Shown here one piece after another: positions 1,539 through 49,753 of a stretch of DNA of 64,000 bases; the stretch's first letter is position 1; the number at the start of each line of letters is the position of its first letter. The translations under genes were made by a program, and so were the position numbers. The notes below the pieces were generated by a model. It was given only the letters and a program-made list of their open reading frames with translations, did no database searches and was not told the DNA's origin. Origin of the DNA: a virus; the IMG/VR virus record IMGVR_UViG_3300015368_000213, positions 1 through 64,000 of that record. One strand, written 5' to 3'.

Positions 1539-1616
1539 TTAATTCACCTCAATTTAGTGTGCCGTAAAGGCAATATATAAAAAATGACATACCCACCATG
1601 CCCATACCCCAACGAA
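1536..1616. repeat. 81-bp direct repeat, copy 1
   Basis: Matches 3925-4005 with two differences (positions 1562 and 1613). It carries the leader and ribosome site of the downstream gene plus the tail of a small membrane-peptide gene, intact only in the second copy. Confidence 0.95.
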
Positions 1617-1625
1617 GAGGCGTTA
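1554..1625 (-). pseudogene. Remnant of small membrane-peptide gene
   Basis: The frame encoding GVWAWWVCHFLYIAFTAH and its stop matches the C-terminal part of the intact 32-residue gene at 3943-4041. Here the 5' part is missing: the frame is closed by TAA upstream and has no usable start. It looks like the leftover of the duplication at 1536-1616. Confidence 0.6.
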
Positions 1626-1645
1626 TCTCCACCCGTCAATTCAAA

Positions 1646-1963: not shown

Positions 1964-1972
1964 GTTAATCTC

Positions 1973-2665: not shown

Positions 2666-2693
2666 AAAGCCTCTCAAATATTAAAAAACAACC

Positions 2694-3002: not shown

Positions 3003-3034
3003 TACAATCTCCCATTGCCTAACTCTATGTAGCT

Positions 3035-3062
3035 ATTATACGGGAATGGTACCCAAAGTCAA
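3035..3062 (-). promoter_or_regulatory. sigma70-type promoter (TTGACTTT class)
   Basis: Minus strand: -35 TTGACT (3057-3062), 16-base spacer, perfect -10 TATAAT (3035-3040). The -35 is followed by TT, giving the octamer TTGACTTT shared by five promoters in this window. Drives the genes at 2694-3002 and further left. Confidence 0.8.
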
Positions 3063-3109
3063 TAGTTTTTTACTAAAAATAAACCTAATAGAATCAATAA
3101 CTTACGAGA

Positions 3110-3283
3110 TCACTGTCTCAGTAGCCATATTACCTGCTCCGGTCCGGTGAATTGATCTTTAAAGAGTTTGTAATAATCTGAAGCCCATTCAGGATTTTGA
3201 GCAATCACAGCTTGAACCTGAAACCCAATGTTTTTCCACTCTTCATATGTGGCATATTTCATAATTTGTTGCTCGCTATTCAT
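3110..3283 (-). CDS. 57-residue paralogue of the protein at 702-923
   Basis: Shares residues 1-25 (MNSEQQIMKYATYEEW...) with the protein at 702-923 through the 225-bp duplication, then diverges into VIAQNPEWASDYYKLF and KDQFTGPEQ, ending WLLRQ. Start overlaps the TGA of the upstream peptide gene. Either a genuine chimeric gene or one whose 5' end was replaced by the duplicated segment. Function unknown. Confidence 0.5.
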   Translation of the reverse strand: MNSEQQIMKYATYEEWKNIGFQVQAVIAQNPEWASDYYKLFKDQFTGPEQVIWLLRQ

Positions 3284-3432
3284 TTATATACCTCGTGTAT
3301 CCAACAGCCAATTGCAGTTACAGTGATGAACACCGGAAGCATTGCAAAAAGCACATACCCGTTATACATAACGGCTGTAGCGGCTTGCTCCTCTATCTGT
3401 TTTTCGTAATCGCCATTCATTCATCACCTCTT
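3208..3432. repeat. 225-bp perfect direct repeat, copy 2
   Basis: Identical to 848-1072. Together with the 81-bp repeat at 3925-4005 it shows that 848-1616 and 3208-4005 are partly duplicated blocks in the same order, separated by different genes. Confidence 0.97.
3280..3420 (-). CDS. 46-residue membrane peptide (copy 2)
   Basis: Identical in DNA and protein to the gene at 920-1060, with one predicted transmembrane helix. Its ribosome site lies inside the same repeat. Overlaps the start of the gene at 3110-3283. Confidence 0.6.
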   Translation of the reverse strand: MNGDYEKQIEEQAATAVMYNGYVLFAMLPVFITVTAIGCWIHEVYK

Positions 3433-3523
3433 ACTTTAACAATTCGTTTTCTTCTGACAGCAAAGTGCCAATTTTATCCAACAAACCCCGCAGCCTTCCA
3501 ATCTCCGCAGTGTTTACAAACAT
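3431..3523 (-). CDS. 30-residue ORF in the operon
   Basis: MFVNTAEIGRLRGLLDKIGT... ending LSEENELLK; a short amphipathic helix. Its ATG overlaps the TGA of the upstream gene (TGATG) and it fills the gap before the membrane peptide gene, which argues for expression. It could also be a truncated remnant. Confidence 0.4.
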   Translation of the reverse strand: MFVNTAEIGRLRGLLDKIGTLLSEENELLK

Positions 3524-3927
3524 CAGTCTTGTTCATATTTTCTTTTTGCACCATTAACCTCGTTCATTTGTTTTTCTAGCATATCACTGTGAAATGCTGG
3601 ATTTGGGTTTTCAATTCTGTAGGCAAACCCACCACTAAAATAAACACAGTATCCATATCCATGTCCACTCTCGATTACGATTGTATATGCTGCTGTTATA
3701 GCTTGTCCACCAACTCCACCAAAACCTAACGCAGTTGATCCCCATACCTGCGGAAACATTGCGACCACTGTTAGATCATATTCGCTGTGCTTCCTTTTTC
3801 TGGTTATACGAGCATCCTTGTCTTTTGATGCCCAATCTCTGTCTTCGTATTCAATTTCTGGAAACCCAACATGCACAGCATGGCCTAATGCTCTATGCAA
3901 AGAATTTAACGGACTATCTATACTCAT
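3523..3927 (-). CDS. Conserved hypothetical protein with Gly-rich core
   Basis: 134 residues (MSIDSPLNSLHRALGHAVHV...). The centre reads WGSTALGFGGVGGQAITAAYT followed by hydrophobic strands (IVIESGHGYGYCVYFSGGFAYRI), suggesting a compact beta-rich fold. I recall related proteins in other proteobacterial phages, all of unknown function. Its leader is the duplicated 81-bp repeat. Confidence 0.65.
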   Translation of the reverse strand: MSIDSPLNSLHRALGHAVHVGFPEIEYEDRDWASKDKDARITRKRKHSEYDLTVVAMFPQVWGSTALGFGGVGGQAITAAYTIVIESGHGYGYCVYFSGGFAYRIENPNPAFHSDMLEKQMNEVNGAKRKYEQD

Positions 3928-4005
3928 TTAATTCACCTCAATTTAGTGTGCAGTAAAGGCAATATATAAAAAATGACATACCCACCATGCCCATACCCCA
4001 ATGAA
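3925..4005. repeat. 81-bp direct repeat, copy 2
   Basis: Two mismatches to 1536-1616. This copy keeps the complete 32-codon peptide gene at 3943-4041. Confidence 0.95.
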
Positions 4006-4041
4006 AAAGCCAATAATATATGCTTTCTGTTTCTCATTCAT
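3943..4041 (-). CDS. 32-residue membrane peptide
   Basis: MNEKQKAYIIGFFIGVWAWW... ending YIAFTAH; a single Trp/Phe-rich hydrophobic helix. Its ATG lies inside the end of the upstream gene. A decayed copy sits at 1554-1625. Function unknown. Confidence 0.5.
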   Translation of the reverse strand: MNEKQKAYIIGFFIGVWAWWVCHFLYIAFTAH

Positions 4042-4198
4042 CTTTTATTCTCTCATTCATACGACAAGACATACCACGAAACCCCTTATCTATATACCTA
4101 ATATTGATATAAGTGCCGCATTCATAATAATAAAAAACTTGGTCTTTTTCCTTCATAGATGATCCGCAAAATTTACAACATCTTAGGTCATAACTCAT
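4034..4198 (-). CDS. 54-residue Cys-rich (zinc-ribbon-like) protein
   Basis: MSYDLRCCKFCGSSMKEKDQ... with CCxxCG, a later single Cys in YYYECGTY and another in GMSCRMNERIK; probably a small zinc-binding protein. Start overlaps the upstream stop by 11 bases. Function unknown. Confidence 0.5.
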   Translation of the reverse strand: MSYDLRCCKFCGSSMKEKDQVFYYYECGTYINIRYIDKGFRGMSCRMNERIKDE

Positions 4199-4559
4199 GT
4201 TTATTCACTCTTGCTCTTATTGATGCTGAAATTTGTTCGCACCCTACGTACCTATCTGCAATTTTCGCACACTCTTCGGACTCAAGAACTGCGGCGTTCC
4301 TATATACTTGTGAATACCTTCCTTGTCCAGTAGTGATGAACTGGTAACAAGGAAGGCACATATCACCAACAAACTGCCCTTGGTGAGTATGGTTTTTGCA
4401 ATTTTTAACAATACATTTATCCTGCCTCCTGTATTCGGATAATGCAAATTTCAACCGTGCAGTTTCCACCTCTAGAGCAGCAACTCTTTTTTGGTAACAA
4501 TTGTGTTCACCAATAAATGTTATTTCAACTCCACAGTAAGTACAGGTATTGTTGGGCAT
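4188..4559 (-). CDS. Zinc-finger small protein, mosaic of neighbouring domains
   Basis: 123 residues. The N-terminal TCTYCGVEITFIG matches the zinc knuckle of the protein at 1057-1362. The middle has CIVKNCKNH and CLPCYQF motifs, a second Cys cluster. The C-terminus (ESEECAKIADRYVGCE...SIRARV) matches the signature of the protein at 226-606. Accessory early protein assembled from shuffled pieces; function unknown. Confidence 0.65.
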   Translation of the reverse strand: MPNNTCTYCGVEITFIGEHNCYQKRVAALEVETARLKFALSEYRRQDKCIVKNCKNHTHQGQFVGDMCLPCYQFITTGQGRYSQVYRNAAVLESEECAKIADRYVGCEQISASIRARVNKHEL

Positions 4560-4570
4560 AATATTTCACC

Positions 4571-5467
4571 TCAAGAAACAAACTCGTTAAAGAAATTTTC
4601 AATGAAAGCCAATCTATCCTGTTCTTCCAAACTTACAAAATGATCTCTGTTGCTGTTGATGTGATCTACCAATGGATAATACTCCTCTGGCAAATTATTC
4701 TTGTTTGCAATCAACCATTCCGAAGTAACCTTTTCTGCTCTAATGCGAGCAAACAATTTCTTGGTTAGATAATATGGTGATTTGATCTTCAATACAGTAG
4801 TAGCAGTATACACAACAAATCCTTCTTTTTGAGAATTCTTTGCTTCGTTAACCAAATCACTGAATCTACACACACTACATCGTGGAATAAATGCACCAAA
4901 TTCTCGTAACTTAACTTCTGATAGAGAAGGAATAGCAGGATCAGGAATATCAAGCACTCCAGTAGAAATATTTCTTCTGCCTAGAAAATACGCACCAGTT
5001 TTTTCCTTAATGATATGCGGATCACTATGATCAACAATTTCAAACATATAGGTGTATCCCACATCAAGAGCACCTTTCAATGGTGTGATATGCTTTTCTG
5101 CCAGTGTTACGAAATCAGAATCTAATGATCCCGTAGTGGATACAATCAACCCATGCACAGGATGCATGGTTGCTGCGCCCATAAATCCATTGATCTTCTC
5201 AATCGAAATAACCAAGTTATCCCGTGGAATATCTGTATTATTTTCAAAACGATTAAAGATCTTCTTGAATGGCAGACAGACAATGTTGTAATCTGCATCC
5301 ACAACCATGCCACGCATTTCCATTAATTCTGGTGTCCAGAGATTATCATAGAATACACGATTGTGGTACTTCAAAACAAATAGATCAGGATAACGCTTTG
5401 ATTCCTTGCGCAATACTAATCTAGGATTGTTTTCAACAAAATATCTTATTTGAGTTGGAGTCAACAT
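4571..5467 (-). CDS. ATP-dependent RNA ligase (T4 Rnl1-like)
   Basis: 298 residues from ATG 5467; an in-frame TTG at 5479 is rejected. Nucleotidyltransferase motifs: MRGMVVD (about 51-57) with LPFKKIFNRFE, typical of the T4 RnlA RNA-ligase family; motif I KxNG at about 91-94, whose lysine carries the AMP; motif IV EGFVV and motif V LKIKSPYY near residues 215-235. It would seal broken RNA such as cleaved tRNAs. It directly follows a polynucleotide-kinase-like gene, the classic phage RNA-repair pair, with Ro-like protein and Y-like RNAs a few kb upstream. Substrate is inferred. Confidence 0.85.
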   Translation of the reverse strand: MLTPTQIRYFVENNPRLVLRKESKRYPDLFVLKYHNRVFYDNLWTPELMEMRGMVVDADYNIVCLPFKKIFNRFENNTDIPRDNLVISIEKINGFMGAATMHPVHGLIVSTTGSLDSDFVTLAEKHITPLKGALDVGYTYMFEIVDHSDPHIIKEKTGAYFLGRRNISTGVLDIPDPAIPSLSEVKLREFGAFIPRCSVCRFSDLVNEAKNSQKEGFVVYTATTVLKIKSPYYLTKKLFARIRAEKVTSEWLIANKNNLPEEYYPLVDHINSNRDHFVSLEEQDRLAFIENFFNEFVS

Positions 5468-5475
5468 GTTATATC

Positions 5476-5922
5476 TCAATCAATTTCAAAATGCTTTATA
5501 TCAACGAAATTCTCAAAATATTTCACAACATCCTCATTGGATACGAAACGATTCTTCATCCTTTCTATAGTATCATATGGGACATTATGCACTGATCCAA
5601 AATTATGCTTCATATGGATGATAATCATCGCATACCCATAATCCTTTGTCAATTGGGCATAGGGTGTAATTTCAGAGATCTTAGTAAATGTGTTGGACAC
5701 GAAAATTTTTTCTGTACCATTAAGCATTTCACATTCAACGGAAAAACGACACCATTTGTGCGCCTTATTTAAATAAGATGCATCAAATTTGTATTCTTCA
5801 TTGTCCATGAAGTACATATCAGTTTCCCGATGTACGCTATTTGGTGCTGCCTGTGCTGCTGCTTGGGCATAAGTGGACTTACCAGAACCGGGTAGTCCAC
5901 GAATTATGTATAGTGTTTTCAT
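5476..5922 (-). CDS. Polynucleotide-kinase-like P-loop ATPase
   Basis: 148 residues. The N-terminus holds a Walker A motif GLPGSGKST (9-17), then HRETDMYFM. The order of motifs resembles the kinase domain of T4 Pnk/zeta-like AAA_33 kinases. There is no C-terminal HAD phosphatase domain, so only 5' phosphorylation is expected. Immediately upstream of the RNA ligase, suggesting joint end-healing and sealing of RNA. Could alternatively be a small-molecule kinase. Confidence 0.7.
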   Translation of the reverse strand: MKTLYIIRGLPGSGKSTYAQAAAQAAPNSVHRETDMYFMDNEEYKFDASYLNKAHKWCRFSVECEMLNGTEKIFVSNTFTKISEITPYAQLTKDYGYAMIIIHMKHNFGSVHNVPYDTIERMKNRFVSNEDVVKYFENFVDIKHFEID

Positions 5923-6735
5923 TTATGCTGCTGCTTTTGTGTCGGTGAGTGTTTTTACTCTGGAGAGAACAGTCTGCTGCTGTCCATTATATTCACGATA
6001 TCCCTTGATGGTTCCACGGATGCTCAACTTCAAACCCACTTTAGGTGCCCATGCTGACGACATCACAGTGATGCATGCATTGGTAGTACTCTCCACCATT
6101 ATAGTCAGAGCTGATGCACCATACAGTGTCTGTAATGGGATTGATTTGATCACTGTAACATCAATATCAACACGCTTGCCAGCAACACCATAATGTGCAT
6201 CTTTACTTGGTGTTGGCAGCAACAGATGCTGATATTTTTCACGAAGGACTTGAGCAACATAATACAGAATAGAATCTTCTTTGAATGCACCAGTGGTCAT
6301 CATCCATTGCATGTAGGATACATCAATATCTTCGAATTTGTGACCAGTGAAACGACCAATAGGCATGATTCCGGAATTTACTAATTCCTTGTATTCGACC
6401 ATCAACTTCTCACGGGCAGCAATTTCATCCACAATTCGCTGCTGACGGGCTGCTTCACGTTTTTCCAATTCCTCCTTTGTTGTGCGCTTGATTTCACGCA
6501 TTTCAATCAAAAGAGTATTTCTGTCGTAACTGATAGGCATACTACGCTTTTCGGCATATTCTGTTGCCTTGGCAATAGCCACATCAATATCCTGAGACAG
6601 GTTCTGGATATGATATGAAAGCATCACCTTGCGACGACCAAAGAAGTCAACACTATTTTCCCGCAGGGTATAGAACGCGCAGGTTTCACCAATTCCAATG
6701 TAGAGGACAGGTATGAAAGCGTCTGTGTTGCTCAT
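5923..6735 (-). CDS. Predicted nucleic-acid-binding protein (DUF3820-like centre, OB-like C-terminus)
   Basis: 270 residues. Residues about 80-115 are a charged helix (KRTTKEELEKREAARQQR...). The centre, MPIGRFTGHKFEDIDVSYMQWMM, resembles the short fold found after exonuclease domains and in DUF3820 proteins. The C-terminal ~85 residues (RVDIDVTVIKSIPL...LSIRGTIKGYREYNG) alternate strands as in an OB fold. Role unknown; first gene of the operon that ends with the RNA repair pair, behind the promoter at 6767-6795. Confidence 0.6.
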   Translation of the reverse strand: MSNTDAFIPVLYIGIGETCAFYTLRENSVDFFGRRKVMLSYHIQNLSQDIDVAIAKATEYAEKRSMPISYDRNTLLIEMREIKRTTKEELEKREAARQQRIVDEIAAREKLMVEYKELVNSGIMPIGRFTGHKFEDIDVSYMQWMMTTGAFKEDSILYYVAQVLREKYQHLLLPTPSKDAHYGVAGKRVDIDVTVIKSIPLQTLYGASALTIMVESTTNACITVMSSAWAPKVGLKLSIRGTIKGYREYNGQQQTVLSRVKTLTDTKAAA

Positions 6736-28255: not shown

Positions 28256-28888
28256 TTAATATTTAGTAGTCTTATTGGGGTTTTTAGTGAGCACCAATCG
28301 TGTGCCAGCTCTGTTGGGATCATAATCTTTCCCTGTTGCATTTGTATATTTTACATAATTTGATCTGGTTGTTGGCACATATTGATTGTTTCCTTTTGGT
28401 GTAAGGATATGTGTTTGTATATCAGGTTCTACACCTTTTTTCAAGCTATTTACATGTTCATCACCTAATCTATTCCATATAGACTGTCCTTTCTTTGTCT
28501 GCGACATATCAGATACAAGACTCAATCCATGATATAATACTAGATGTTTATATGCATCTGATGCTCTCACGCTTGATTTAGGGATTGATCCGACAGCATG
28601 AATTTGCATCCCTACCTTTTTATTTCTAGCATAACGATCATTTCTTATGATGTCGCTTCCATGGATAGCTAGTTGAACTTTTTTATCACCTTTTTTAGTG
28701 AAGTTATAAGTGCTATTATCATTATCCACCTGTTGATGATATACATCATGTGGCTCACCTTCATGATTAAAAAAAGTAGAAACTTTTGTATGTGATGGAT
28801 CATCATCAATATCATCATCTACAAATGCACCCTTCCGGATAGAGGAAAGGGTGTATATTTCATTCAAAAATTCACGAAAGTTTTTCAT
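28256..28888 (-). CDS. Putative virion/internal protein with capsid-targeting-like N-terminus
   Basis: 210 residues from ATG 28888. Begins MKNFREFLNEIYTLSSIRKG, close in pattern to the N-terminal targeting peptide of T4 internal head proteins (MKTYxEFIAE). Then an acidic segment (DDDIDDDP) and a globular domain (VGMQIHAVGSIPKSSVRASD..., LVLYHGLSLVSDM). Last gene of the late block. Might be injected into the host; function unknown. Confidence 0.5.
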   Translation of the reverse strand: MKNFREFLNEIYTLSSIRKGAFVDDDIDDDPSHTKVSTFFNHEGEPHDVYHQQVDNDNSTYNFTKKGDKKVQLAIHGSDIIRNDRYARNKKVGMQIHAVGSIPKSSVRASDAYKHLVLYHGLSLVSDMSQTKKGQSIWNRLGDEHVNSLKKGVEPDIQTHILTPKGNNQYVPTTRSNYVKYTNATGKDYDPNRAGTRLVLTKNPNKTTKY

Positions 28889-36993: not shown

Positions 36994-37380
36994 TTATATC
37001 TTTCTCAGAATCTCCACTAACTTAAAATCTACTGGTATATCACTAGATAATATATTCGCGCCTTTTATGCCTTTCACTACATCTGGCATGGCATTTGTAA
37101 ATAATAAAAAGGTTTTCAAAGCACTATAATCCTTCTTGTTTATTTTCAGGAATAGTATTCTTGTACTGCCTTCTATACCAAATACGTTCTGGGATATGAT
37201 TAAATGATTCAATAGAAGCCTTTCTTTTATTGAACCAGTTAATCTATATCTTTGTAATAGTCTCTTGATATATCGTATTCTTTTATAATCTTCATTAAAT
37301 TCACTCTGTATACAATTTGGGGTTTCGTAACATTTTATTGCATATAGATTGATATTATAGTCATTCAAATCATTAAACAT
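36994..37380 (-). CDS. Conserved T4-like phage structural-region protein
   Basis: 128 residues, helical. NINLYAIKCYETPNCIQSEF, YKRIRYIKRLLQRYR and ERLLLNHLIISQNVFGIEGS match a protein I recall from the structural gene region of many T4-like cyanophages, of unknown function. It is in the late block here too. Confidence 0.65.
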   Translation of the reverse strand: MFNDLNDYNINLYAIKCYETPNCIQSEFNEDYKRIRYIKRLLQRYRLTGSIKERLLLNHLIISQNVFGIEGSTRILFLKINKKDYSALKTFLLFTNAMPDVVKGIKGANILSSDIPVDFKLVEILRKI

Positions 37381-37383
37381 ATA

Positions 37384-37842
37384 TTAGTATTCGCTTGTGT
37401 CGCCACCATCATCTTCTCTACGGGCATACCACGTAGATGGTCTTGTTGTTATTGGTTCTCTTTCATCAAAGTGCTCTCTTTTATCCATATCCATCAAAGC
37501 ACCAAGTTCATCACTATTTACAATCTGTGCATATCCATCAACATATCCATCTTCATTTGTATCGTATACAATGTATAGATGGTCATCTGATTCACCCACA
37601 ACATAAACCATTTCAGAGCTTAATTGCAGGAAATTGTCAGTTGCCTTTGCGGGTAACTGGATACCATAACGCTCTAACACACCACGCATCTGAGCCAGAA
37701 ATATAGGTGCATTTTGATATGGCTTTTCTGTTAACTTATCCAATTCATCATTCAGCTTGTCCCTATTCTGGGATAGATTTCGAGCATCAATTTCAATCAT
37801 TTCATCGAAATCTTCCGTGATATAATCTTTAAATTTTAGCAT
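37384..37842 (-). CDS. Conserved late protein with targeting-like N-terminus
   Basis: 152 residues from ATG 37842, overlapping the upstream stop. MLKFKDYITEDFDEMIEIDA, then FLAQMRGVLERYGIQLPAKA and a strand-rich part (HLYIVYDTNEDGYVDGYAQI). Acidic, with a Cys-free C-terminal tail. N-terminus resembles T4 internal-protein targeting sequences. Function unknown. Confidence 0.5.
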   Translation of the reverse strand: MLKFKDYITEDFDEMIEIDARNLSQNRDKLNDELDKLTEKPYQNAPIFLAQMRGVLERYGIQLPAKATDNFLQLSSEMVYVVGESDDHLYIVYDTNEDGYVDGYAQIVNSDELGALMDMDKREHFDEREPITTRPSTWYARREDDGGDTSEY

Positions 37843-39913
37843 TCTGCTCACCCCCACTCACCCCAATATTAAGAGTATGATCTAATGTTGGTTCTGTATT
37901 TATTTCATTAACATTGCTCTTCTGATCTTTCTTTCCCTTACCCTTGCGCACTATAGACAAAACCTTTTCAGCTTTGCTTTTTGCATCTTCGTAGATAGAA
38001 TCTTCATTGATACCACAATAATGTTTTGCTGTATTATGAGCATCTTCTTTATCTTCATAGTGGTGACTATCTGCATGTGGATTACGTACACCATCCTTAT
38101 CAAAATATTTCACAATATGATCATTCCATTCAGTATCTTTATATACAACAGCCTTTCTTCCATCTGCTCCAGTATATCCTTGAAGCTTTTTCATTGCTTC
38201 AGTTATAGGTGGTGTATTTCCATGTGTTCTTTTTGCTGCTTCATCTGCAACATCACTATCAGAATCATTTGATAATTTAGCTAAAACATCTGGTGGTGTG
38301 TTTGGATGTTGCGCAGTAAGATATCTGATATACCAATCAGAATCATCACCTAATGTACGTAGATGATCTTCATTGGCATCTGGATGTGCAGCTGCTTTAG
38401 CCCTAACATTCCATGATTTATCATTAACATCCATATCCAAATCTTTATTTGCAACAACTGGAACATCTGTTGTAGGAACATTACCAACAACTCTATCGTG
38501 TGCTCTTCCAAGATCAGTTACATTTTTGTTGAATTGATCTGGTGTCACTGGTTCATCATTGTGAGCAATTTGACCCACTTTTGCTTGTGTGTATCTACGT
38601 GCCAAATCTTGACTGATTTCTTGTAGAGTTTTTGCCTGTTCTTTTATGTGTTTGATTGGTAGCTTACCATGACCCACTGTTTCTAGGTCATCACGAGTTA
38701 CTCTACCACCACTTACTTTCTTTAATTGTTGAATGGCAGCAGTATCAACTTCACCTAGATGAGTTTTCATTGCATTCATTACATCAGAGATCGTGAATTC
38801 AACAAGATTCTCTGATGATTCTTGCATGCTTGGTCTCTTATTGTAATATCTGTTTGTATACCAATCAGGAAGATGGTACTTACCCAAAGTCCTTGTCAAC
38901 ATTCTATTGCGGAAGCCTAATACGGTCTGTGCATCATTTACTTGATCTAGATACTTTGATTCTGCTGATTCATTTCCAGCATCTTTCATTGCTCTAGCTG
39001 CTTCTGCTGCATCTTTACTGATATATCGCAATTCTTCATTGGATTTATTGTGATATGGATGTCCTTCTAATGGATGGCGTGTTGTGTCGTCAGCACTTTC
39101 TCCAAGTTTATAGAATGGATAATCACCAACTTTTGTTAGGTGCTTATCTAATTGATGCCAGCCCGGTTGCTTTGCTCCATTCATATCCCTTAGTGTGGCA
39201 ATTAATTTATCACCAAATTTAGATGACATGATATGATCTACCATGTATGGAGTAGTGTTGTCGTAACCCGCAAGGGAGCTAGTAACAGCATCACCGTGTT
39301 TGATTGTTTTTAATTCAGGATCACCATCACCCCATGTACGTCTAGCAAGATCCAATTCCTGCTCTGGCGTTAACATATTATTACCAATTTGATCTGGTTG
39401 AATTCTGTTTTTTACTGGTGGATTAACTTTACCATCAGCAACATCACCAAATGTAGGTTCGTATGGCTGGTTATACCAAAATCCTTCTTTATTAAGTCTC
39501 TGTGCTGCTAATGTTCCTGCTTGTGGACTTGGTTTGTTATCTTTAGAAAATTTATCAATTTCTTTTCTGGCTTTTGCTCTGGCAATTATACCTCTAATAT
39601 CAGCTGGTAACTTTTTAGCACCACCATCCGTTTTATCTGCGCATGTATCCATGGAATCACCAGCTTCTTCTGTTACTGGTGTGTCATTTTGAACAGAAAT
39701 TGTTTCACTTGGTGCTTCTATAGAAGCATCTTCTTGCATGATTGTTGCAGATTGCACATTATAGCCAAGATTTTTGAATTGCTTTGATGCACGATTTATT
39801 GCTTCTTCGGCACTAGAAGCCTCAACGATGTGACTTTTTACATGTACACGATTACGCAATGATACGTGTTCGTGGCTTGGAATGGTTACATTTAATTGTA
39901 CTACGTGTTTCAT
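37829..39913 (-). CDS. Large late protein with leucine-rich-repeat-variant modules, 694 aa
   Basis: N-terminal domain (KHVVQLNVTIPSHEHVS... AEEAINRASKQFKNLGYNV) of ~60 residues, then long hydrophilic, mostly helical segments. Near residues 490-570 are LRV/HEAT-like repeats (SWNVRAKAAAHPDANEDHLR, SDWYIRYLTAQHPNTPPDVL, SDSDVADEAAKR). The same repeat type occurs in the next gene at 39914-40786. Lies with virion genes; probably packaged or scaffold-associated. Role unknown. Confidence 0.55.
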   Translation of the reverse strand: MKHVVQLNVTIPSHEHVSLRNRVHVKSHIVEASSAEEAINRASKQFKNLGYNVQSATIMQEDASIEAPSETISVQNDTPVTEEAGDSMDTCADKTDGGAKKLPADIRGIIARAKARKEIDKFSKDNKPSPQAGTLAAQRLNKEGFWYNQPYEPTFGDVADGKVNPPVKNRIQPDQIGNNMLTPEQELDLARRTWGDGDPELKTIKHGDAVTSSLAGYDNTTPYMVDHIMSSKFGDKLIATLRDMNGAKQPGWHQLDKHLTKVGDYPFYKLGESADDTTRHPLEGHPYHNKSNEELRYISKDAAEAARAMKDAGNESAESKYLDQVNDAQTVLGFRNRMLTRTLGKYHLPDWYTNRYYNKRPSMQESSENLVEFTISDVMNAMKTHLGEVDTAAIQQLKKVSGGRVTRDDLETVGHGKLPIKHIKEQAKTLQEISQDLARRYTQAKVGQIAHNDEPVTPDQFNKNVTDLGRAHDRVVGNVPTTDVPVVANKDLDMDVNDKSWNVRAKAAAHPDANEDHLRTLGDDSDWYIRYLTAQHPNTPPDVLAKLSNDSDSDVADEAAKRTHGNTPPITEAMKKLQGYTGADGRKAVVYKDTEWNDHIVKYFDKDGVRNPHADSHHYEDKEDAHNTAKHYCGINEDSIYEDAKSKAEKVLSIVRKGKGKKDQKSNVNEINTEPTLDHTLNIGVSGGEQNAKI

Positions 39914-40786
39914 TTAATTACCTGCTTTCATTTTTGCGGCTATTGCCATTTTTATACGATCTTCTTTGCCCTTTCCTTTGAATTGGGGAGCATCCGAATG
40001 TTCAAAATCATTTATAACCTGCTTCATGGTAGATTTGGTTATATTCATTTTCTCATTGATCTTATCTCTCATCTTTGATTTGGCTAATTTATCCATTGCC
40101 AAATCAAGATTTTTTTCTCTTTTATTTGTTCTACTGTTTGATTCGGCTTTGTTGTAGATGTCTCCCTTCTTGCCGGAATTAAAGCTCTGTGAGCTAAAAT
40201 TCTGCACTTGATCTTCTACATTAGCCTTTATATAGCTCTTTAAAGTTTGATCACTAACTTCATCCAATTGATGCTCTTCATGCGCAGTCACACTCATGAG
40301 CTTTTTGTTTGCTTCCTTTCTTACTATCCTATCCGGATCATTTGCTAACTTAACCAATGTATCCATTGATGTGTTTGGGTGCCTAACCACATTAAAGCGT
40401 ATGCCAGCATGACTATCATTGGATAGTTGCTCCAATTGTTCGTGAGATGCACTTGGATGTGTTGCTACCATTTCACGATCAAAGTATTTTGGGGAATTTA
40501 TTGCAGTATTCAATACTGCACTACCATAAGAAGATTCTTGTACAGGTTCATCTTTTTTTGCTTTTGTGGTGACTGTTCCCCAATTGGGGTATTTGTCCTG
40601 TAATTTCTTAGCAATTCTATCATGAGCAGCTATTGCACCTTTATTAGTGCTTGCTTTATGTTTATCTGTCCCAGTATGAAGAACATTCCCTTCTCTATCT
40701 AAAACTTCGACATCGACCAATGGTGCTTCTTGCACTAATGAAGATTTGTTTTTTGCTGCTGATATTATTGTTTTGATTATAGACAT
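39914..40786 (-). CDS. Late protein with leucine-rich-repeat-variant modules, 290 aa
   Basis: Residues ~20-75 (VDVEVLDREGNVLHTGTDKH...) form a small domain. Residues ~90-170 are LRV repeats (YFDREMVATHPSASHEQLEQ, HAGIRFNVVRHPNTSMDTLV, PDRIVRKEANKKLMSV). The C-terminus is Lys/Ser-rich. Shares the repeat with its downstream neighbour. Function unknown. Confidence 0.55.
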   Translation of the reverse strand: MSIIKTIISAAKNKSSLVQEAPLVDVEVLDREGNVLHTGTDKHKASTNKGAIAAHDRIAKKLQDKYPNWGTVTTKAKKDEPVQESSYGSAVLNTAINSPKYFDREMVATHPSASHEQLEQLSNDSHAGIRFNVVRHPNTSMDTLVKLANDPDRIVRKEANKKLMSVTAHEEHQLDEVSDQTLKSYIKANVEDQVQNFSSQSFNSGKKGDIYNKAESNSRTNKREKNLDLAMDKLAKSKMRDKINEKMNITKSTMKQVINDFEHSDAPQFKGKGKEDRIKMAIAAKMKAGN

Positions 40787-40792: not shown

Positions 40793-41287
40793 TTATCCTA
40801 AAGATGATGTTAATTGCCAAGCGAGTTTCTTATGATAATTAAATTGATCTTGCAGATAATTAGCCAGACCAACTTGATTTGCTGCTTCTGCCATTTTCTG
40901 TGCGGCAAGCAAACCACCTAAGATCTTTTGGTTGTCTGATGATAGTGCCATAAGCATTTCTTCTATGGACAAATCCTTATCATTTTCCATTAATGTTGTA
41001 TTGTGTATCATATCTGTTATGGAGCGTGGTGCTGGTGATCCAAGCATACGTATGTGTTCAGCTAATGTGTCTACACTATCAAATACGGTTTCATATATAT
41101 CCCCAAAAAATGCATGGTATTGGGAAAAGCCCAATCCACGAACATTCCAGTGAAATGCATGGGATTTAAAATAAAAGACAAAAGTATCAGCTAAAACTTG
41201 CTCCATTGTGTGCACAAGATCCATTGCTGTCTCTGCATCAACAATACTTTCAGCTTCTTTGATGAACTTTTTGATATTATCTTTCAT
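40793..41287 (-). CDS. Dps/ferritin-like DNA-protection protein
   Basis: 164 residues from ATG 41287 (GGAG upstream and late box ahead). The Dps motif HWNVRG...YH...DxxAEHIRMLG is present, with H46, H58, D73 and E77 at the spacing of Escherichia coli Dps ligands H51, H63, D78 and E82; the D67 equivalent is shifted by one. Four-helix bundle length is normal. Oxidises and stores iron and may coat DNA. The N-terminus MKDNIKKFIKEAE resembles the T4 capsid-targeting peptide, so it may be packaged. Confidence 0.82.
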   Translation of the reverse strand: MKDNIKKFIKEAESIVDAETAMDLVHTMEQVLADTFVFYFKSHAFHWNVRGLGFSQYHAFFGDIYETVFDSVDTLAEHIRMLGSPAPRSITDMIHNTTLMENDKDLSIEEMLMALSSDNQKILGGLLAAQKMAEAANQVGLANYLQDQFNYHKKLAWQLTSSLG

Positions 41288-41310
41288 TTTATGACTCCGT
41301 GACACCAGAT

Positions 41311-41318
41311 TATTTATA
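41311..41318 (-). promoter_or_regulatory. T4-type late promoter box TATAAATA
   Basis: Exact TATAAATA on the minus strand between the gene at 41326-42636 and the Dps-like gene, 24 bases before the Dps ATG. Indicates late expression of Dps. Confidence 0.65.
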
Positions 41319-41325
41319 TTTTTCA

Positions 41326-42636
41326 TCAATTAGCAAATGGTGCAGATGTCACCAATGGCATCCCTAAATCCCCAGCAAAATTTGCTGGTCTAGTTGTGCT
41401 GGATGGTCTGTTGGTGTTAATTTCTGGGTTTGGATTGATTGTGCTTTGTTCACGTTCTATATTTTTTCTGATTTTTCTTAATGATTTTTTAGATGATTCT
41501 GTCTGTAAATTATTACAGGATGAGCAATTGCCCCCTGTCATAACTGCGCCACATTCAGGACACATTGCGTCTTGAATGTTTTGAACCTGACCCGGTGTCA
41601 TAGCTATAGCGTGTTCTCTATATGAATCTGTACCAATTAATTGCATCTCATTGACAGTTAGGGATAGGTTTGATCCGTGATATTGCTGTGTTGATCCATT
41701 AGGGAATTTTATTGTGTGGTTTGTGGATGTATTATCAGATGCCACAACTTTACCCACATGACCACTATTTACAACTGAACCAACAACTTGCACTGGAGTA
41801 CCTATTGCAATGTGTCTTTTTTCAAGATCACCTTTGATATCTTCCTGTACGGCTAGTGTTGCATTATTCAATTCGGCATTTCTTTTATTATAGAGTCTGG
41901 CTCTTTGTATCTTTGTGATACCACCGCTTCTTGGTAAATGCTTCACCACACCAGTGAATGGGTCAATTGCCTCATTCTGCTGTTTTTTGAAGAACTGCAC
42001 CTGACGCTCACGTTTCTTTGCTCCAGAAAGAGTATTATATGTACCCAGATTTTTACCTGTTGATTTTGAAACTAAACGATATTCATCACCAACTTTTACT
42101 ATATGTTCTTGTATATTTTCTCTTATTTTATTAAAAGTCTTCAGCTCTGGAGTGCTGTGCATGGTCATCCCAAGATCAATAACTCTTTCCAAGAGCTTTT
42201 CTATCTGTTTGGTAAATATTATCTTTTCTAAATCCGTGGATTCTTTGAGGTTTATTGAATTGTTGAAAACAAAAATATTATTGTCTTCAGATAGCATCTT
42301 TTCTGCCTTCAGAAACCTATCAATTCTTTTACTTTCTTTTATTGGACTTCTTAGTTCAGCATTCCTTTCTCTGCTGATTTTATTGGTGACTGATACGAAA
42401 ATGGTATCAAATGTGTATCCTTCCATGATACTCTTGGCTAGAAAGATCTTCTCTGAATCCCCGCCAGTGACAACTAGATTTTTGCGTTGTTCTATTAGGT
42501 TTGTAGCTGTTCCGGTAAGCACTTGGTCAATTTGAACTTCAACCAAATCGAATCTGGATAATATATTCTTTAAAACATAGTCCTTTCCGCTACCAGGAAC
42601 ACCAGTCAAAAATATACCAATAGATTGTTTCTGCAT
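41326..42636 (-). CDS. P-loop kinase-like protein fused to zinc-ribbon region, 436 aa
   Basis: Walker A GVPGSGKD (12-19) starts an AAA-type kinase domain of ~170 residues. Then comes VGDEYRLVSKSTGKNLGTYN plus GAKKRERQVQFFKK, a short motif common in phage and cyanophage virion proteins. A beta-barrel-like part (IAIGTPVQVVGSVVNSGHVG) follows, then a zinc ribbon (CPECGAVMTGGNCSSC) and a Pro/Asn-rich tail. In the late block. Function unknown; mixed catalytic and structural features are unusual. Confidence 0.6.
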   Translation of the reverse strand: MQKQSIGIFLTGVPGSGKDYVLKNILSRFDLVEVQIDQVLTGTATNLIEQRKNLVVTGGDSEKIFLAKSIMEGYTFDTIFVSVTNKISRERNAELRSPIKESKRIDRFLKAEKMLSEDNNIFVFNNSINLKESTDLEKIIFTKQIEKLLERVIDLGMTMHSTPELKTFNKIRENIQEHIVKVGDEYRLVSKSTGKNLGTYNTLSGAKKRERQVQFFKKQQNEAIDPFTGVVKHLPRSGGITKIQRARLYNKRNAELNNATLAVQEDIKGDLEKRHIAIGTPVQVVGSVVNSGHVGKVVASDNTSTNHTIKFPNGSTQQYHGSNLSLTVNEMQLIGTDSYREHAIAMTPGQVQNIQDAMCPECGAVMTGGNCSSCNNLQTESSKKSLRKIRKNIEREQSTINPNPEINTNRPSSTTRPANFAGDLGMPLVTSAPFAN

Positions 42637-43759: not shown

Positions 43760-44401
43760 TCACCTAATATTCTTATATACCTTACGCATGAATTTCTTCC
43801 ACACATCAATATCATTCTCATAAAAATATTTGTTATAGAGAAATATTGCTTCTGATTCTCGCCACGTAATATTACTGGGGCATCGTAGTTTATTTATGTT
43901 CAGCTTCCCATACGCGAAGTCAACAATTGTCTCATATGCATGAGCATCTATTTCGTCACTTGACCCAAAATAATACAACTTATCTCGTATGCCCTTATGT
44001 ACTGTTTTTGGTGGTATATAGTTGTCCCCACAGAAGAATATTTTCTTTCGTTTGTATTGTTCTTTATGTCTCAACTCATGATAGAAGATCTTATGTAATT
44101 TCATTATTAGTATGTCAGCACCACGCTTGGATAAGGAAATCTTCTTTATGTATTTCGGGAATGATAGTGATATTATTATGTGTTCTGGTATACCTACTAT
44201 TTTCGGACAGTATTCAGCTGATACTATGACAGAATGATTCTTATATGATTTACCGACGAATCTGTTGGAGATAAAGTATACCTTATGTGTATTGAATTTA
44301 GCATTCAATTTTCTTATCATAGATGGTATATAGATATCCCCAACAAACACATCACTCATTTCATTAATCTTTTTACATAAAATAGATAATTTCACAATCA
44401 A
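43760..44401 (-). CDS. Predicted zinc metallopeptidase (HExxH), second type
   Basis: 213 residues. KIFYHELRHKEQYKRKK holds HExxH, with SSDEIDAHAYETIVDFAYG downstream supplying a third ligand. Same overall plan as the protein at 7242-7775 but little sequence similarity beyond these motifs. Follows the helicase gene with a four-base overlap. Target unknown. Confidence 0.55.
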   Translation of the reverse strand: MIVKLSILCKKINEMSDVFVGDIYIPSMIRKLNAKFNTHKVYFISNRFVGKSYKNHSVIVSAEYCPKIVGIPEHIIISLSFPKYIKKISLSKRGADILIMKLHKIFYHELRHKEQYKRKKIFFCGDNYIPPKTVHKGIRDKLYYFGSSDEIDAHAYETIVDFAYGKLNINKLRCPSNITWRESEAIFLYNKYFYENDIDVWKKFMRKVYKNIR

Positions 44402-45795
44402 TCAACTTTAAGCTTATTGAACTTGTTACCAAAAGAATTGTTGTTTCGTTCGAATGCTGGTTTCGATTCTCTTGGTTCTGTAGCCACTACTGGTAATTGC
44501 TGTGGCTGGTTTTCTGTGATGTTATACAGCTTCATCTTACTTCTATCCACCCCAACCATAAATTTCCTATAATAATTCGGATCATTATATCTATTTTTCA
44601 GCTGCTTTATCATCATTTGATTGAGGTTCTGTAGCTCTTCTGGTGCAACAAGAGCAAACATGAGATCTGCTGTCGCAGGAAGTCCGAAAGATTCACTGGT
44701 ATCTTCCAAACCAGGATCTTGACTGTTAAATCCGGCTCTGGTGGTTTGTGTGGCAGACATAACTGGTACATCAAATTCAACAGCCAATCCACGAAGTTCT
44801 TCTGCAATGGCTTTGATGTATGTGTAGCTGTTTATATTTGATCCGGTTTTGATCCTAGACGATGAACATATATTAAGATAGTCCACGAAGATTATGGAAG
44901 GCTTAAAATTCTTCTTCATCGCAAGATCATTCAATAGTGCCCTGAAATGTGCAGCATTTGCTGATGCAGTTGGATATTCCTTTATTATCAGTCTTCCCTT
45001 TATACTTTCTGCCAATCTACTCATTCTTCTCTTATATACGTCCTTTGGCATCTTCCTCAGTTCATCCATGGTAACATCAAGGATATTGGCATCGATGCGT
45101 TCTGCGATACGTTCTTCCGACATTTCCAGTGTAATGTATAGCACATTATAGTTCTGTAGTAATATTGATGCCGCAACGTGGCACATGAATAGGGATTTAC
45201 CCGCACCAGTTCCACCCAATGCGATAATCAGAGATTTTGGTGGGAGACCGCCACCAGTTATTTTATTGAATAATTCAATATCGAACGGAATGCGCTTTTC
45301 CAGTTTATGATAAAAATCATACCTATCATCACTATTGGTAATATAATCGTGACCAATGCTAGGATCAAAACTAATAGATAAAGCATCAGTAAGTATAGAT
45401 GGAATGATTCCTTTGCTGCGCGTACCATGTTCATCATCAAGGATTTCAATTGATTCGTATATTGCATTGTGGATTGCCTTTTCTTGACAAAATTTCTCAG
45501 CAATATCCAATAGCCAATCAAGCTTTTGTTCTTGCTCAGTCGTGTCGATTCTACCCAAAAGTTCTAAGGAATTATTTAGTTCTGATTCTGATATGTTGTG
45601 GCTATCTTCCAGTGATAACTTTATAGCTGTTGTTGTTGGTAATGTGTTATACTTCTCAACATATTTCCTTATCTCATTTACTATCTTTTTCTCGTATCCC
45701 TCTAGGAAGTATTCCGCTTTGAGGTACGGAAGAGACTTCCTCATGAAATTCTCGTTCTTGATCAGATTCGTTAATATCACTTCTTCTTTCTTCAT
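44398..45795 (-). CDS. 41: Replicative DNA helicase (T4 gp41 / DnaB-like)
   Basis: 465 residues from ATG 45795 (GAGGTTGTCA upstream). The N-terminal helical domain (~150 residues) is followed by a RecA-like core: Walker A GGTGAGKS (194-201), YNVLYITLEMSEERIAERID, IIFVDYLNICSS (Walker B), MSATQTTRAG (H3) and KNRYNDPN. Unwinds DNA at the fork with the primase at 27082-28122. Confidence 0.93.
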   Translation of the reverse strand: MKKEEVILTNLIKNENFMRKSLPYLKAEYFLEGYEKKIVNEIRKYVEKYNTLPTTTAIKLSLEDSHNISESELNNSLELLGRIDTTEQEQKLDWLLDIAEKFCQEKAIHNAIYESIEILDDEHGTRSKGIIPSILTDALSISFDPSIGHDYITNSDDRYDFYHKLEKRIPFDIELFNKITGGGLPPKSLIIALGGTGAGKSLFMCHVAASILLQNYNVLYITLEMSEERIAERIDANILDVTMDELRKMPKDVYKRRMSRLAESIKGRLIIKEYPTASANAAHFRALLNDLAMKKNFKPSIIFVDYLNICSSSRIKTGSNINSYTYIKAIAEELRGLAVEFDVPVMSATQTTRAGFNSQDPGLEDTSESFGLPATADLMFALVAPEELQNLNQMMIKQLKNRYNDPNYYRKFMVGVDRSKMKLYNITENQPQQLPVVATEPRESKPAFERNNNSFGNKFNKLKVD

Positions 45796-46120
45796 TGACA
45801 ACCTCTTCTGCTGCCGCTATTGCATTTTTCAATACACTCAGCATAATATTGTTTGTATAATTACGGAATGCTAATGATTCCAGATTATAATTATTTGGAT
45901 TATGTAGTACAGACATAGAGAATGATGTGACACCATCATCATCTATCCTGAAATGAGAGAACTCTACTACCGTATCAGGGTATTTTCTTAGTATTTTTAC
46001 TGGTATAGATGACTCATTACCGACATTATACATCACCATGTAATGTTTGCCAAGTTGGAAGTCCCTACGTAAAAACCACCACAATACCCTATACGATATA
46101 TTCCGGATGGAATCAATCAT
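45674..46120 (-). CDS. Protein between uvsX and helicase genes, 148 aa
   Basis: Start ATG 46120 overlaps the uvsX stop (ATGATTGA). MIDSIRNISYRVLWWFLRRD, LGKHYMVMYNVGNESSIPVK and a beta domain, then helix IMLSVLKNAIAAAEEVVNEE and an acidic tail. The tail overlaps the helicase 5' end by 122 bases in another frame. T4 gene 40 occupies the same place between uvsX and 41, so a gp40-like role is possible by position only. Confidence 0.6.
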   Translation of the reverse strand: MIDSIRNISYRVLWWFLRRDFQLGKHYMVMYNVGNESSIPVKILRKYPDTVVEFSHFRIDDDGVTSFSMSVLHNPNNYNLESLAFRNYTNNIMLSVLKNAIAAAEEVVNEERRSDINESDQEREFHEEVSSVPQSGILPRGIREKDSK

Positions 46121-47183
46121 CTTCATCATCCACATAATCCAATACAATTTCATAATCAGAGTTCTTCATAATATCACCAGAAGATAGCTGATATTTTGTC
46201 TTAATGAAATCTGTAAATGTTTTCATCTTTAGGATAGGTAACCAGAAATTAGGTGTATTGGTATCCTTTTCTCTGTATTTCTCTGGCTCCACCACACCCT
46301 GATCATTTATTCGTGAATACCAACCATTACTTGGCTTAACTACATGACCTGATTCTAGGGCAATATCAAGTAATCCACTCCAACGACTTATTCCGCCATC
46401 AAACGTGACTGTTACTGGGATCTTGGATTTTTCCTTTACGTATCTGGACTTTTCCACATTGATAATGAAGTTATATCCACTAACTTCCGTGCCATCCTTT
46501 TCTTGTTGTCTACCAAGAATATAAATGTTATCTGCTGATAGATATGATCCTGTACCACCACCCACAACATCCTTGGAATACAGTTCCAGAGTCTTATAGG
46601 TATGATTAACAGCTACCATTGGAATGTCTTTTAGGTTCAGGTGTGGTGTGACCAATCTGAACAAGGATTTTATTTGTTTTGGCCTAGACATATCCTGCAC
46701 CGACTTTTGCTCCATTGCATCATCAACTTCCTTCTTGGAAGCAAGCATACCAATAGAATCCACCACAATGATAACATGATCACCACGATTGATCTCGTTT
46801 AATTGAGCCATGATGTCAAACTTTAGGAGTTCGATATCCGTAAGTGGTACGTGTAGGACTCTATCTTTGTCTATATTAAATGAATCGAAATACTTCAATG
46901 GAGTACCGAATTCCGAATCATAAAAAATCATAGCAGCATCAGGGTATTTGTCCATATAGGACTTTGCCATCAATAGGGCAAATGCGGTTTTAAAGTGCTT
47001 AGATGGTCCGGCAAACATTGTTAGACCTGGTGTTATACCACCATCAATTCTACCGCTTAATGCGATATTAATGACTGGAATGGGTGTCTGCACCATATCC
47101 TTTTTAGTGAAGAATTTTGATGTTGATAATACATCCGTCTCTTTAATTGTCGAATTCTTTTTCAACTTATCTATAATAGTCAT
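46113..47183 (-). CDS. uvsX: RecA-like recombinase UvsX
   Basis: 356 residues. Walker A GPSKHFKT (59-66, compare GPSKSFKS of T4 UvsX), AAMIFYDSEFGTP, VIIVVDSIGMLASKKEV (Walker B) and MVAVNHTYKT. Catalyses strand exchange in recombination-dependent replication and repair. In an operon with polymerase and helicase. Confidence 0.93.
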   Translation of the reverse strand: MTIIDKLKKNSTIKETDVLSTSKFFTKKDMVQTPIPVINIALSGRIDGGITPGLTMFAGPSKHFKTAFALLMAKSYMDKYPDAAMIFYDSEFGTPLKYFDSFNIDKDRVLHVPLTDIELLKFDIMAQLNEINRGDHVIIVVDSIGMLASKKEVDDAMEQKSVQDMSRPKQIKSLFRLVTPHLNLKDIPMVAVNHTYKTLELYSKDVVGGGTGSYLSADNIYILGRQQEKDGTEVSGYNFIINVEKSRYVKEKSKIPVTVTFDGGISRWSGLLDIALESGHVVKPSNGWYSRINDQGVVEPEKYREKDTNTPNFWLPILKMKTFTDFIKTKYQLSSGDIMKNSDYEIVLDYVDDEDD

Positions 47184-47203
47184 AGCAAAAACCTCTCAAT
47201 ATA

Positions 47204-49753
47204 CTAAACAAAAAAACCACTTATTGTTGATACTCTTTCGGACTTCCATCCTATACAATCCAGAATAGTTGCTAGTGGTGCTAAGAAACTTTTTTCGAAT
47301 TGTGTATTATAATCTATCCACTCATAAATGTCGAATTCTGGTGGTATAGTGTTTAGGAATGCAATTGCATTATTGTGGAATGGGTTAGGTGTTTTCAGAT
47401 AACAAAACTTTATCTTATTACCATCTCTGATTGTCTGATATTTTTTACCCAACTTACCCATAACAATAAACTTATTATATATCAATGCACTCTTTACTTG
47501 TATTGGTGCTCCTTTCTTATATACAGATGATGCATCATGATATTGAGCAATACCATTAACGGATCTTGGGAATGATATATCCTCAATCTTTTGTTGTTTG
47601 AATTCCTCTCTGAAATCCTCTATGAAATCTAATAGAGCATCTTCATCACCAGTCATAATTGTTCGTATCGCTTCTTTAATCTTCGTCCTACAGATATATG
47701 GAGTAGATGATTTAACCGCTTCAATCCCCATTATCTTTAGTTCTGGTGTTTCATACCTAACCCCCTCGATATCATATGCATTCATGATGTATCTCTTCTT
47801 GGCTGTCCAAATTGCCTTATCTGCTAGAGTTTCTCTCTTCATATTCATTTTTTGAGCATATGCATTCATGTAATTCGCGAGATTTTGATATGACTTTTTG
47901 ATCATTGGTTGTATCTTTTTCTCGCATACATTATTCATGAAGTCTATTATTTGGATTTTTGGTACATCCTTCGTATCACCATAGGATTTAATAACTAATG
48001 GCTCCAGATTGATATAAACAGAATCTGTGTCCATAGCAATAATATAATCAACATCAGCTGTATCCATTACCTTATTCAGGTAAGAATTTATACTTCTCTC
48101 GATCCATTTGATGGATAGTTTTCCGGCTGATGTGATGGCTTCTGCTATTCGAATATCGAAGAACCTGAAATATTGATTACCCATAGACCCATACGCAGAA
48201 TTCAGAGTAACCTTCAATGCCATGTTCATCCCCTTATATTTGGAGATGTCATTCTTTATTTTTTCTATGACCTCTGGATCATCTGTATCCAGACTCTCCA
48301 ACTTTTTCTTGGATTCTATTTCCAGAGATTTATATTTTGCTCTATCTTTATACATCGATTCCATTATTTTAGGTAGGAACCCCTGATCATCAATTTTGAA
48401 GAATTTACCATTTGGTGTTAATGTTATGGCATAATCCTTTAATATCGATAAATTAATTTGTTGATCCAACAGACTATCTACAGATGCAGCAGATACAATA
48501 TCTGACATATCATCAGAATAGCTTGTTGGACTTACTAATGTTTCTGGACTTATGTTGTATTGCATCATCAAATGTGGATAGAGACCATCAAGGTCGAATG
48601 ATACAACATACTTGTACATTCCGGCTATTGGCTCTTTAACGTATGCGCCACCATATTCTTTATCCTTATCATGCACCAATGGCTGTGGCACTACCACATT
48701 TATCTTCTTCAATGCATTATATGTAATGGTATCCCACATTCTCACCTGATAGAAAACATCTTCAAAATTTACTTTGTTGTAATAAGCAACATTTAATACG
48801 AGATCGAGTAATTTCTTTTTATTGTCAAGCTTCTCCACAAGCAGAATATCTCGAATATTATATTCTATGAATTTCTGATGATCTGATTTATACAACTGGT
48901 GTAGTGTTTCGTATTCGGAATAATCTAGTTTCCTTTCGCCCAACTCGTAAAATGCCACGGTATCCAGCTGATAATTCTCTTGTGGGGAGAAACCATATTT
49001 CTTATATAGCTCAAGATAATCAATTGTGGCTATTCCGGATATATCATAATAAATTACATCATTAGAATAGCTATCGGTAGTACGTTTTAGGGATATCTTT
49101 TTCCATGGGGATAGTTTTTTGGCATGATCTTCCCCCATGATATTGGATATTCTATTCACCAAATAAGGTATATCGAATAGTTTTACATTCCAGCCAGTGA
49201 TGATATCTGGGCAATTTAAAGTGAAGACATCAATGAACCTTGTTAATAGATCACGTTCGTTTTTACACTTGTGATACTGCACATTAGGATCATCTGTTGT
49301 GAAATCACCCACACCAAAACTGTATATGGTGTTTCCTATTTTAACTGAAATAGCAGTAACTTCTTCTGTGGCAGAAATAACATCCGGAAATCCATTCTCA
49401 GATCCACACTCAATGTCTATATTGGCAATGAGTATTTTTCTCGGATCGAAATCGATATCATCCGTAAACATATCGGAAATGAATGCATACTTGAATTTAG
49501 CATTTCCATAGATGGGGAAGGAATGTACATCCTTGTACTGTTCGATGAAATCTCTACACTCTTTCATGTCTCCGGCTTGCACAGGCTGCACGTATTTACC
49601 ATCAAGGGTCTTGTATCCACTTTCTTTATCAGTAAGGACATAAAGAAGTGGTTTATATTCTATGCGTTGTGCTACTCTCTTACCGTTTTTAATACCACGA
49701 TATAGAATATTTTTACCATAAACCTGAACATTAGTGTAGAAATTATCAGACAT
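47204..49753 (-). CDS. 43: Family B DNA polymerase (T4 gp43-like)
   Basis: 849 residues (T4 gp43 898). The 3'-5' exonuclease Exo I is IANIDIECG (D113, E115), with NVKLFDIPYLVNR as Exo II and later YNIRDILLVEKL as Exo III. Polymerase motif A is FDLDGLYPHLM, motif B KVTLNSAYGSMGN and motif C AMDTDSVYI. All catalytic residues are present. The C-terminal GFFV may be the clamp-binding peptide. Replicates the phage genome with the gp44/62/45 proteins encoded at 60146-62765. Confidence 0.96.
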   Translation of the reverse strand: MSDNFYTNVQVYGKNILYRGIKNGKRVAQRIEYKPLLYVLTDKESGYKTLDGKYVQPVQAGDMKECRDFIEQYKDVHSFPIYGNAKFKYAFISDMFTDDIDFDPRKILIANIDIECGSENGFPDVISATEEVTAISVKIGNTIYSFGVGDFTTDDPNVQYHKCKNERDLLTRFIDVFTLNCPDIITGWNVKLFDIPYLVNRISNIMGEDHAKKLSPWKKISLKRTTDSYSNDVIYYDISGIATIDYLELYKKYGFSPQENYQLDTVAFYELGERKLDYSEYETLHQLYKSDHQKFIEYNIRDILLVEKLDNKKKLLDLVLNVAYYNKVNFEDVFYQVRMWDTITYNALKKINVVVPQPLVHDKDKEYGGAYVKEPIAGMYKYVVSFDLDGLYPHLMMQYNISPETLVSPTSYSDDMSDIVSAASVDSLLDQQINLSILKDYAITLTPNGKFFKIDDQGFLPKIMESMYKDRAKYKSLEIESKKKLESLDTDDPEVIEKIKNDISKYKGMNMALKVTLNSAYGSMGNQYFRFFDIRIAEAITSAGKLSIKWIERSINSYLNKVMDTADVDYIIAMDTDSVYINLEPLVIKSYGDTKDVPKIQIIDFMNNVCEKKIQPMIKKSYQNLANYMNAYAQKMNMKRETLADKAIWTAKKRYIMNAYDIEGVRYETPELKIMGIEAVKSSTPYICRTKIKEAIRTIMTGDEDALLDFIEDFREEFKQQKIEDISFPRSVNGIAQYHDASSVYKKGAPIQVKSALIYNKFIVMGKLGKKYQTIRDGNKIKFCYLKTPNPFHNNAIAFLNTIPPEFDIYEWIDYNTQFEKSFLAPLATILDCIGWKSERVSTISGFFV

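Follow-up and report, generated by a model that had tools for sequence, protein, structure and literature searches.

Phage-encoded Dps proteins and the N-terminal tags of T4 internal head proteins are each already known, and the locus described here raises the question of whether a phage has joined the two and carries a mini-ferritin inside its head. The window, meaning the whole stretch of DNA analyzed, covers the opening 64 kb of a virus record of 125,709 bases whose gene content identifies its source as a T4-like myovirus. The window encodes gp41 helicase, uvsX, the clamp loader, regA, and gp45, while gp55, the capsid protein gp23, the gp22 scaffold, and a gp21 protease homologue (E 1.8e-80) lie outside it in the same record; gp55 is 47% identical to that of S-SM1, and gp23 shows 57% identity. 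From the sequence, we consider packaging of the Dps plausible but unproven, with a probability of about 0.55-0.6, and the fuller reading, in which a Dps of phage lineage is expressed late, bears a T4-type capsid-targeting sequence, and is packaged and cleaved in the head, stands at roughly 0.55.

Table 1. Coordinates of the dps gene, its signals, and neighboring features in the window
Feature	Position	Strand	Remarks
dps gene, 164-aa Dps/ferritin-like protein	40793..41287	-	ATG start, stop included
Capsid-targeting-like tag, codons 1-11, MKDNIKKFIKE	41255..41287	-	gp21-type cleavage predicted at I-K-E, ahead of A12
Ribosome-binding site GGAG	41295..41298	-	7 nt before ATG
Late-promoter-like box TATAAATA	41311..41318	-	23 nt before ATG; 38-nt gap after upstream gene
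Upstream gene, 436 aa, N-terminal P-loop (GVPGSGKD)	41326..42636	-	resembles P-loop part of the pre-Dps protein of L020 and L185
Cassette of gp41 helicase, uvsX, and gp43-type polymerase, on the upstream side of the Dps slot	44398..49753	-	gp43 from a reading of the family-B polymerase ORF
Gene downstream of dps, 290 aa, LRV repeats	39914..40786	-	
Protein of 694 aa, LRV repeats	37829..39913	-	N-terminus like L185 8396-10006 (HEHVSLRRRV)
Protein of 152 aa, tag MLKFKDYITEDFDEM	37384..37842	-	same-slot homologues in L020 (MLKFNEFLNEAYDEM) and L200
DUF7207 protein	36994..37380	-	member of the conserved gene order
Protein of 210 aa, tag MKNFREFLNE	28256..28888	-	

The full ORF spans 40793-41329 on the minus strand, with its natural ATG start at 41287 (Table 1). 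Its product matches Pfam Ferritin (PF00210, E 8.7e-18) and, across residues 23-163 and the whole domain, the phrog_3636 family annotated as “DNA binding protein” (E 4.1e-29), and its best PDB relatives by sequence are Dps proteins. An AlphaFold2 monomer model (mean pLDDT 95) displays the ferritin-like four-helix fold together with the short BC helix of Dps, formed by residues 90-96 between helices B and C, and Foldseek aligned it to Dps structures with query-normalised TM-scores of 0.79-0.87 and rmsd values of 1.0-2.1. Sequence and model together identify the product as a Dps-type mini-ferritin. A search for the ligand pattern H-x11-H-x3-D/E-x10-D-x3-E found H46, H58, D73, and E77, that is, four of the five ferroxidase ligands, with Gly62 at the Asp/Glu position and Asp63 adjoining it. 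The claim of the initial annotation that most ligands are conserved is therefore right, and the odd position is usual among phages: Gly occupies it in 68 of 91 viral relatives and Glu in most bacterial ones, which makes Gly at the fifth ligand, on the sequences compared, a phage-family trait, with Glu present in the Dps of two related loci, L020 and L200. Across the viral loci L001-L098, Gly in this place appears as a change of the iron site that is specific to phages.

Searches with the Dps protein and alignment gathered about 90 viral Dps loci. A tree was built from 94 Dps domains. In it, the window protein clusters (100/97) with L020, its closest relative at 51% identity, and with the short L021; the cluster belongs to a phage clade that stands apart from the bacterial sequences, represented by the 80 nearest loci. 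The Dps of L105, a contig in a Bacteroidetes MAG, also falls within the phage clade, so this contig probably derives from a phage and was binned with bacterial sequence. Compared with Dps proteins such as P. aeruginosa PA0962 (8ff9) and T. pallidum TpF1 (2fjc), the window protein is alike in fold and in four of five ligands, whereas it differs in its Gly62 and Asp63, its acidity, its N-terminal tag-like helix, and its place in a phage clade apart from the sampled bacterial proteins. In nearly all of the ~90 viral relatives, only 22-26 residues precede the first ligand His, and the extension is absent.

It is in this extension that the likeness to T4 resides. In T4, tags send internal proteins into the core of the prohead, and gp21 then cuts the tags off (PMC5694885, PMC7697877). 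A tag pattern taken from T4 IPII and IPIII (MKTYQEFIAEA), namely M, 1-5 residues, F/Y/I/L, x, x, F/Y/I/L, I/L/V/M, x, E, was fixed before the relatives had been seen and applied to every gene of the record. The window Dps begins with MKDNIKKFIKEA and fits this pattern; the gp21 motif (I/L)-x-E, sought in the first ~20 residues, is present as I9-K10-E11 before A12, where cleavage is predicted, and the model places a separate helix at residues 2-15. Throughout the record, the pattern finds the Dps, five other proteins of the phage, and one spurious ORF. Tags occur at 28256-28888 (MKNFREFLNE), at 37384-37842 (MLKFKDYITE), and in three side-by-side proteins beside the capsid gene (record 75262-81783: MKTFKKFITEE, MKTFKTFLAEE, and MKKFLQFIKEE). 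At internal positions, the pattern matches 0.27-0.36% of the time, and a scan of about 100 window genes is expected to give 0.3-2 chance matches. Among T4 genes it picks out IPII, IPIII, the head protein gp2, and four others that are probably chance matches, so the pattern alone is unspecific. When scored with a profile learnt from 59 non-redundant tags that belong to other proteins, the Dps N-terminus ranks above T4 ipI and within the top 1.8% of genes without a core tag, and 0.7% of letter shuffles reach its score (shuffle p 0.007). By these measures, the Dps tag is a real match, weaker than the phage's canonical tags.

Several observations concern the tagged proteins themselves. The three proteins beside the capsid gene (821, 819, and 525 aa; G000 record 75262-81783, L014 12262-18783) have in common the start MK(T/K)F..F(I/L).EEL and an N-terminal region, and they are candidate abundant internal head proteins; the two longer ones contain HEAT or LRV repeats, and no known family was matched. 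Homology to Alt was considered and rejected, as these repeats in two of the three were all that was found. LRV repeats also occur in both genes directly downstream of dps (window 37829-40786), as in the tagged 821-aa protein. T4 gp2, the DNA end protector (L018 16062-16886), starts with MAIFQIINES, which fits the loose tag pattern.

The extension recurs in relatives of the window Dps. That of L020 begins with MTTIHNYVQEAT, and in the first 23 alignment columns the two proteins have only M1, I5, E11, A12, and A18 in common. A profile built from the pair found about 20 further extended copies, and the extended proteins constitute one syntenic set comprising the window gene, L020, L185-L200, L203, L208, and L210. 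The L200 N-terminus, MTDIQNYVQEAT, keeps the tag pattern, while L185-L199 start with MKYHNLVEQAE or MEYNNLIEQAE, keeping the spacing but placing Gln at the expected cleavage residue, with L-V-E as an alternative; the extensions of L203, L208, and L210 (IKKKLIERKMNEA), and likewise L206, do not match the pattern. Three types (window, L020/L200, and L185-L199) thus keep an aromatic or aliphatic residue or Ile, x, x, F/Y/L, I/V, x, E/Q, A/S, while the other residues vary. This second pattern, written after the sequences had been seen, matches 0.06% of internal positions and 0.35% of the remaining N-termini, where the matches are mostly plausible tags; of 69 candidate starts of bacterial Dps, none fits. 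A bacterial origin of the extension with a tag arising by chance was rejected, since bacterial relatives are extended but none fits the pattern. The T4-like targeting start proposed in the initial annotation is supported by the pattern match, by the profile score, by its retention in related extended Dps proteins, by the gp21 gene of the phage, and by one tagged protein known from the virions of another phage.

The box upstream of the gene had been taken as a late promoter. As an 8-mer, TATAAATA was rejected as evidence by itself, because it occurs in the window at chance level (8 observed, 9.2 expected) and only its spacing to starts is informative. The record contains 13 coding-strand copies; besides that of dps, three sit 21, 25, and 26 nt before starts, and for the 21-26 nt interval these three other genes compare with 0.17 expected (p 0.0004). 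They are two tail-type genes, at record 106.8 kb and 113.2 kb, and the gp22 scaffold. The Dps box fits the spacing learnt from these genes, and the late sigma factor gp55 is encoded; both point to a probable late expression of dps. In L020, AATAAATA likewise precedes the ATG of the extended Dps gene by 21 nt. A neighboring late box is missing from most of the other extended copies, which may be read from upstream. Conservation of the box across viral Dps genes was rejected, with 27 of 88 genes against 18% of control genes carrying it and many copies too near the start.

The initial annotation had further placed the gene inside the virion gene block, which is only partly right: dps lies between gp43-uvsX-gp41 (44398-49753, with the gp43-type family-B polymerase read from the ORF at 47204-49753) and the endolysin/fibre genes at 27-37 kb, away from the head-assembly block at about 82-100 kb of the record. 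Around extended Dps genes, the order is constant. Replication genes stand first, with gp43, uvsX, and gp41 among them if the contig is long enough; then come a tagged DUF6267 protein, a cytidylyltransferase/P-loop protein, and Dps itself. Behind Dps follow between one and three large proteins, a tagged protein homologous to that of window 37384, DUF7207, and lysis genes. The window keeps most of this order, with no recognisable DUF6267 gene at that place, and a search of viral contigs found no relatives of the neighbor genes at 41329-42636 and 39917-40786. In L185, a single 1822-aa ORF (1112-6580) precedes the extended Dps and starts as a P-loop kinase, which is a smaller gene in the window.

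Of 354 genes just upstream of viral Dps, at positions -1 to -5, 61 are tagged, compared with 3 of 217 far away, these loci not being independent of one another. Together with the gene order, these counts assign Dps to a group of tagged enzymes that follows gp41, and not to the head-assembly block, and suggest a conserved island of head cargo there. Near Dps in T4-like phages, the tagged enzymes include cytidylyltransferase, HAD phosphatase, DUF6267, and others, contributing 59 non-redundant tags; clusters are seen at L022 3373-6834, L029 3357-6376, L057 2167-4894, L104 13256-14419, and other Dps-bearing loci.

Published proteomics bears on one member of this cluster. In cyanophage S-SM1, the sole core-tagged protein is SSM1_190, the T4-GC190 cytidylyltransferase (MKKFSAFLNEAE), whose gene also lies downstream of gp43-uvsX-gp41, so that in tag type and place it is like the window Dps, although the enzyme is unrelated to Dps. 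Sullivan et al. (2010) detected T4-GC190, as a “putative citidylyltransferase,” by mass spectrometry in purified S-SM1 virions, in which 41 of about 240 proteins were detected, while it was undetected in S-PM2 virions (PMC3037559). T4-GC190 is an enzyme with no other reason for its presence in the particle; nevertheless, given the negative result in S-PM2 and the 41 of ~240 S-SM1 proteins detected, this agreement taken alone is modest.

We propose that the Dps is made late and that its tag, MKDNIKKFIKE, would bring it to the prohead core at head assembly, where the gp21 protease would cut after Glu11 and leave mature Dps (A12-G164) in the head with the DNA. There, it could oxidise or sequester iron, acting as an iron and peroxide sink and lessening Fenton damage to the packaged genome. 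In favor of packaging, gp21 protease, capsid protein, gp55, and gp45 are all encoded by the phage; against it count the tag being weaker than canonical ones, the misfits of L203, L208, and L206, and the Gln in L185-L199. The alternative that the protein, likewise expressed late, assembles and works in the cytoplasm of the infected cell, where it would sequester iron and, up to lysis, shield either the host or the phage DNA under replication, is a serious rival that we regard as possible; it takes the extension as an ordinary fast-changing Dps tail and the tag resemblance as chance. It agrees with the published interpretation of phage Dps proteins as oxidative-stress helpers during infection (PMC8008677, PMC6669764), the sole kind of interpretation that a literature search on phage Dps turned up, and extensions of similar length are common in bacterial Dps. 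Moreover, most phage Dps proteins have no tag even though they have the neighborhood in common, so Dps function in general needs no packaging. However, few members of the phage clade are extended, and in most of these the hydrophobic residues stay spaced as in the tag; the tag pattern is absent from the 69 candidate starts of bacterial Dps, and this phage puts the same type of tag on other proteins.

How a packaged Dps might act, and where it would end up, can also be weighed. The initial annotation had suggested that it protects the DNA or is delivered into the next host. Condensation of DNA by a lysine-containing N-terminus, as with the E. coli Dps tail, with the iron center secondary or lost through Gly62, draws on the four lysines in residues 1-11 (net +2) and on the Gly found in the window Dps and most viral relatives. 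We judge it improbable: the whole protein has a net charge of -9, its 22-residue extension one of -1, no strongly basic tail is present, and T4-type phages package their DNA without such a protein. Predicted cleavage would, in addition, remove the only basic patch and leave an acidic protein (net -11), which weakens the case for protection by DNA binding and makes iron sequestration the likelier function. As for delivery, Dps usually forms stable dodecamers about 9 nm across, whereas a T4-type tail tube measures about 4 nm; should the window protein assemble in this way, the intact dodecamer would be too wide for the tail, so that ejection is physically awkward and retention in the head more likely. 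An effector that is loaded into the head and enters the next host unfolded or as monomers, acting early against oxidative defence much as T4 internal proteins act against restriction, seems very improbable to us. In its favor, T4 internal proteins with this type of tag are injected (PMC9391042).

Retention of a tagged Dps in the head, the reading we prefer, is related to several known systems. T4 IPI, IPII, IPIII, and Alt resemble the window Dps in their short N-terminal tag with F-I-x-E before Ala, and both phages have the gp21 protease and a late promoter box; the cargo in T4 is an anti-restriction protein or an ADP-ribosyltransferase, whereas here it is a putatively packaged Dps. The phrog_3636 proteins of S-SRM01, Lactobacillus 3-521, Aeromonas LAh phages, and “Gratiaviridae” are likewise Dps proteins in phage genomes, but they have been read as acting in the infected cell, and the viral relatives gathered here mostly have no extension. 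Encapsulins have an HK97-fold shell into which a targeting peptide loads ferritin-like iron proteins; this likeness is a working analogy, as the compartment is cellular, the peptide different, and the cargo loading not homologous. In the open-access literature searched, which is not the whole literature, no phage Dps is described as tagged or packaged, and the searchable papers report no Dps or ferritin inside a tailed-phage head.

If correct, packaging of Dps would reveal a means by which a phage shields the DNA in its head from iron-driven oxidation, and it would be relevant to the proposal that phage particles carry iron. More tentatively, T4-like phages of this group may package a mini-ferritin among a set of tagged cargo enzymes (cytidylyltransferase, DUF6267, HAD phosphatase, and Dps) encoded in the conserved island after gp41, in which case the virion would be a carrier of metabolic proteins and possibly of iron. 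The tags on the enzyme cluster beside Dps would provide a simple rule, read from sequence, by which head cargo could be predicted in T4-like phages of marine and fresh waters; one case, T4-GC190, already agrees with it in published virion proteomics.
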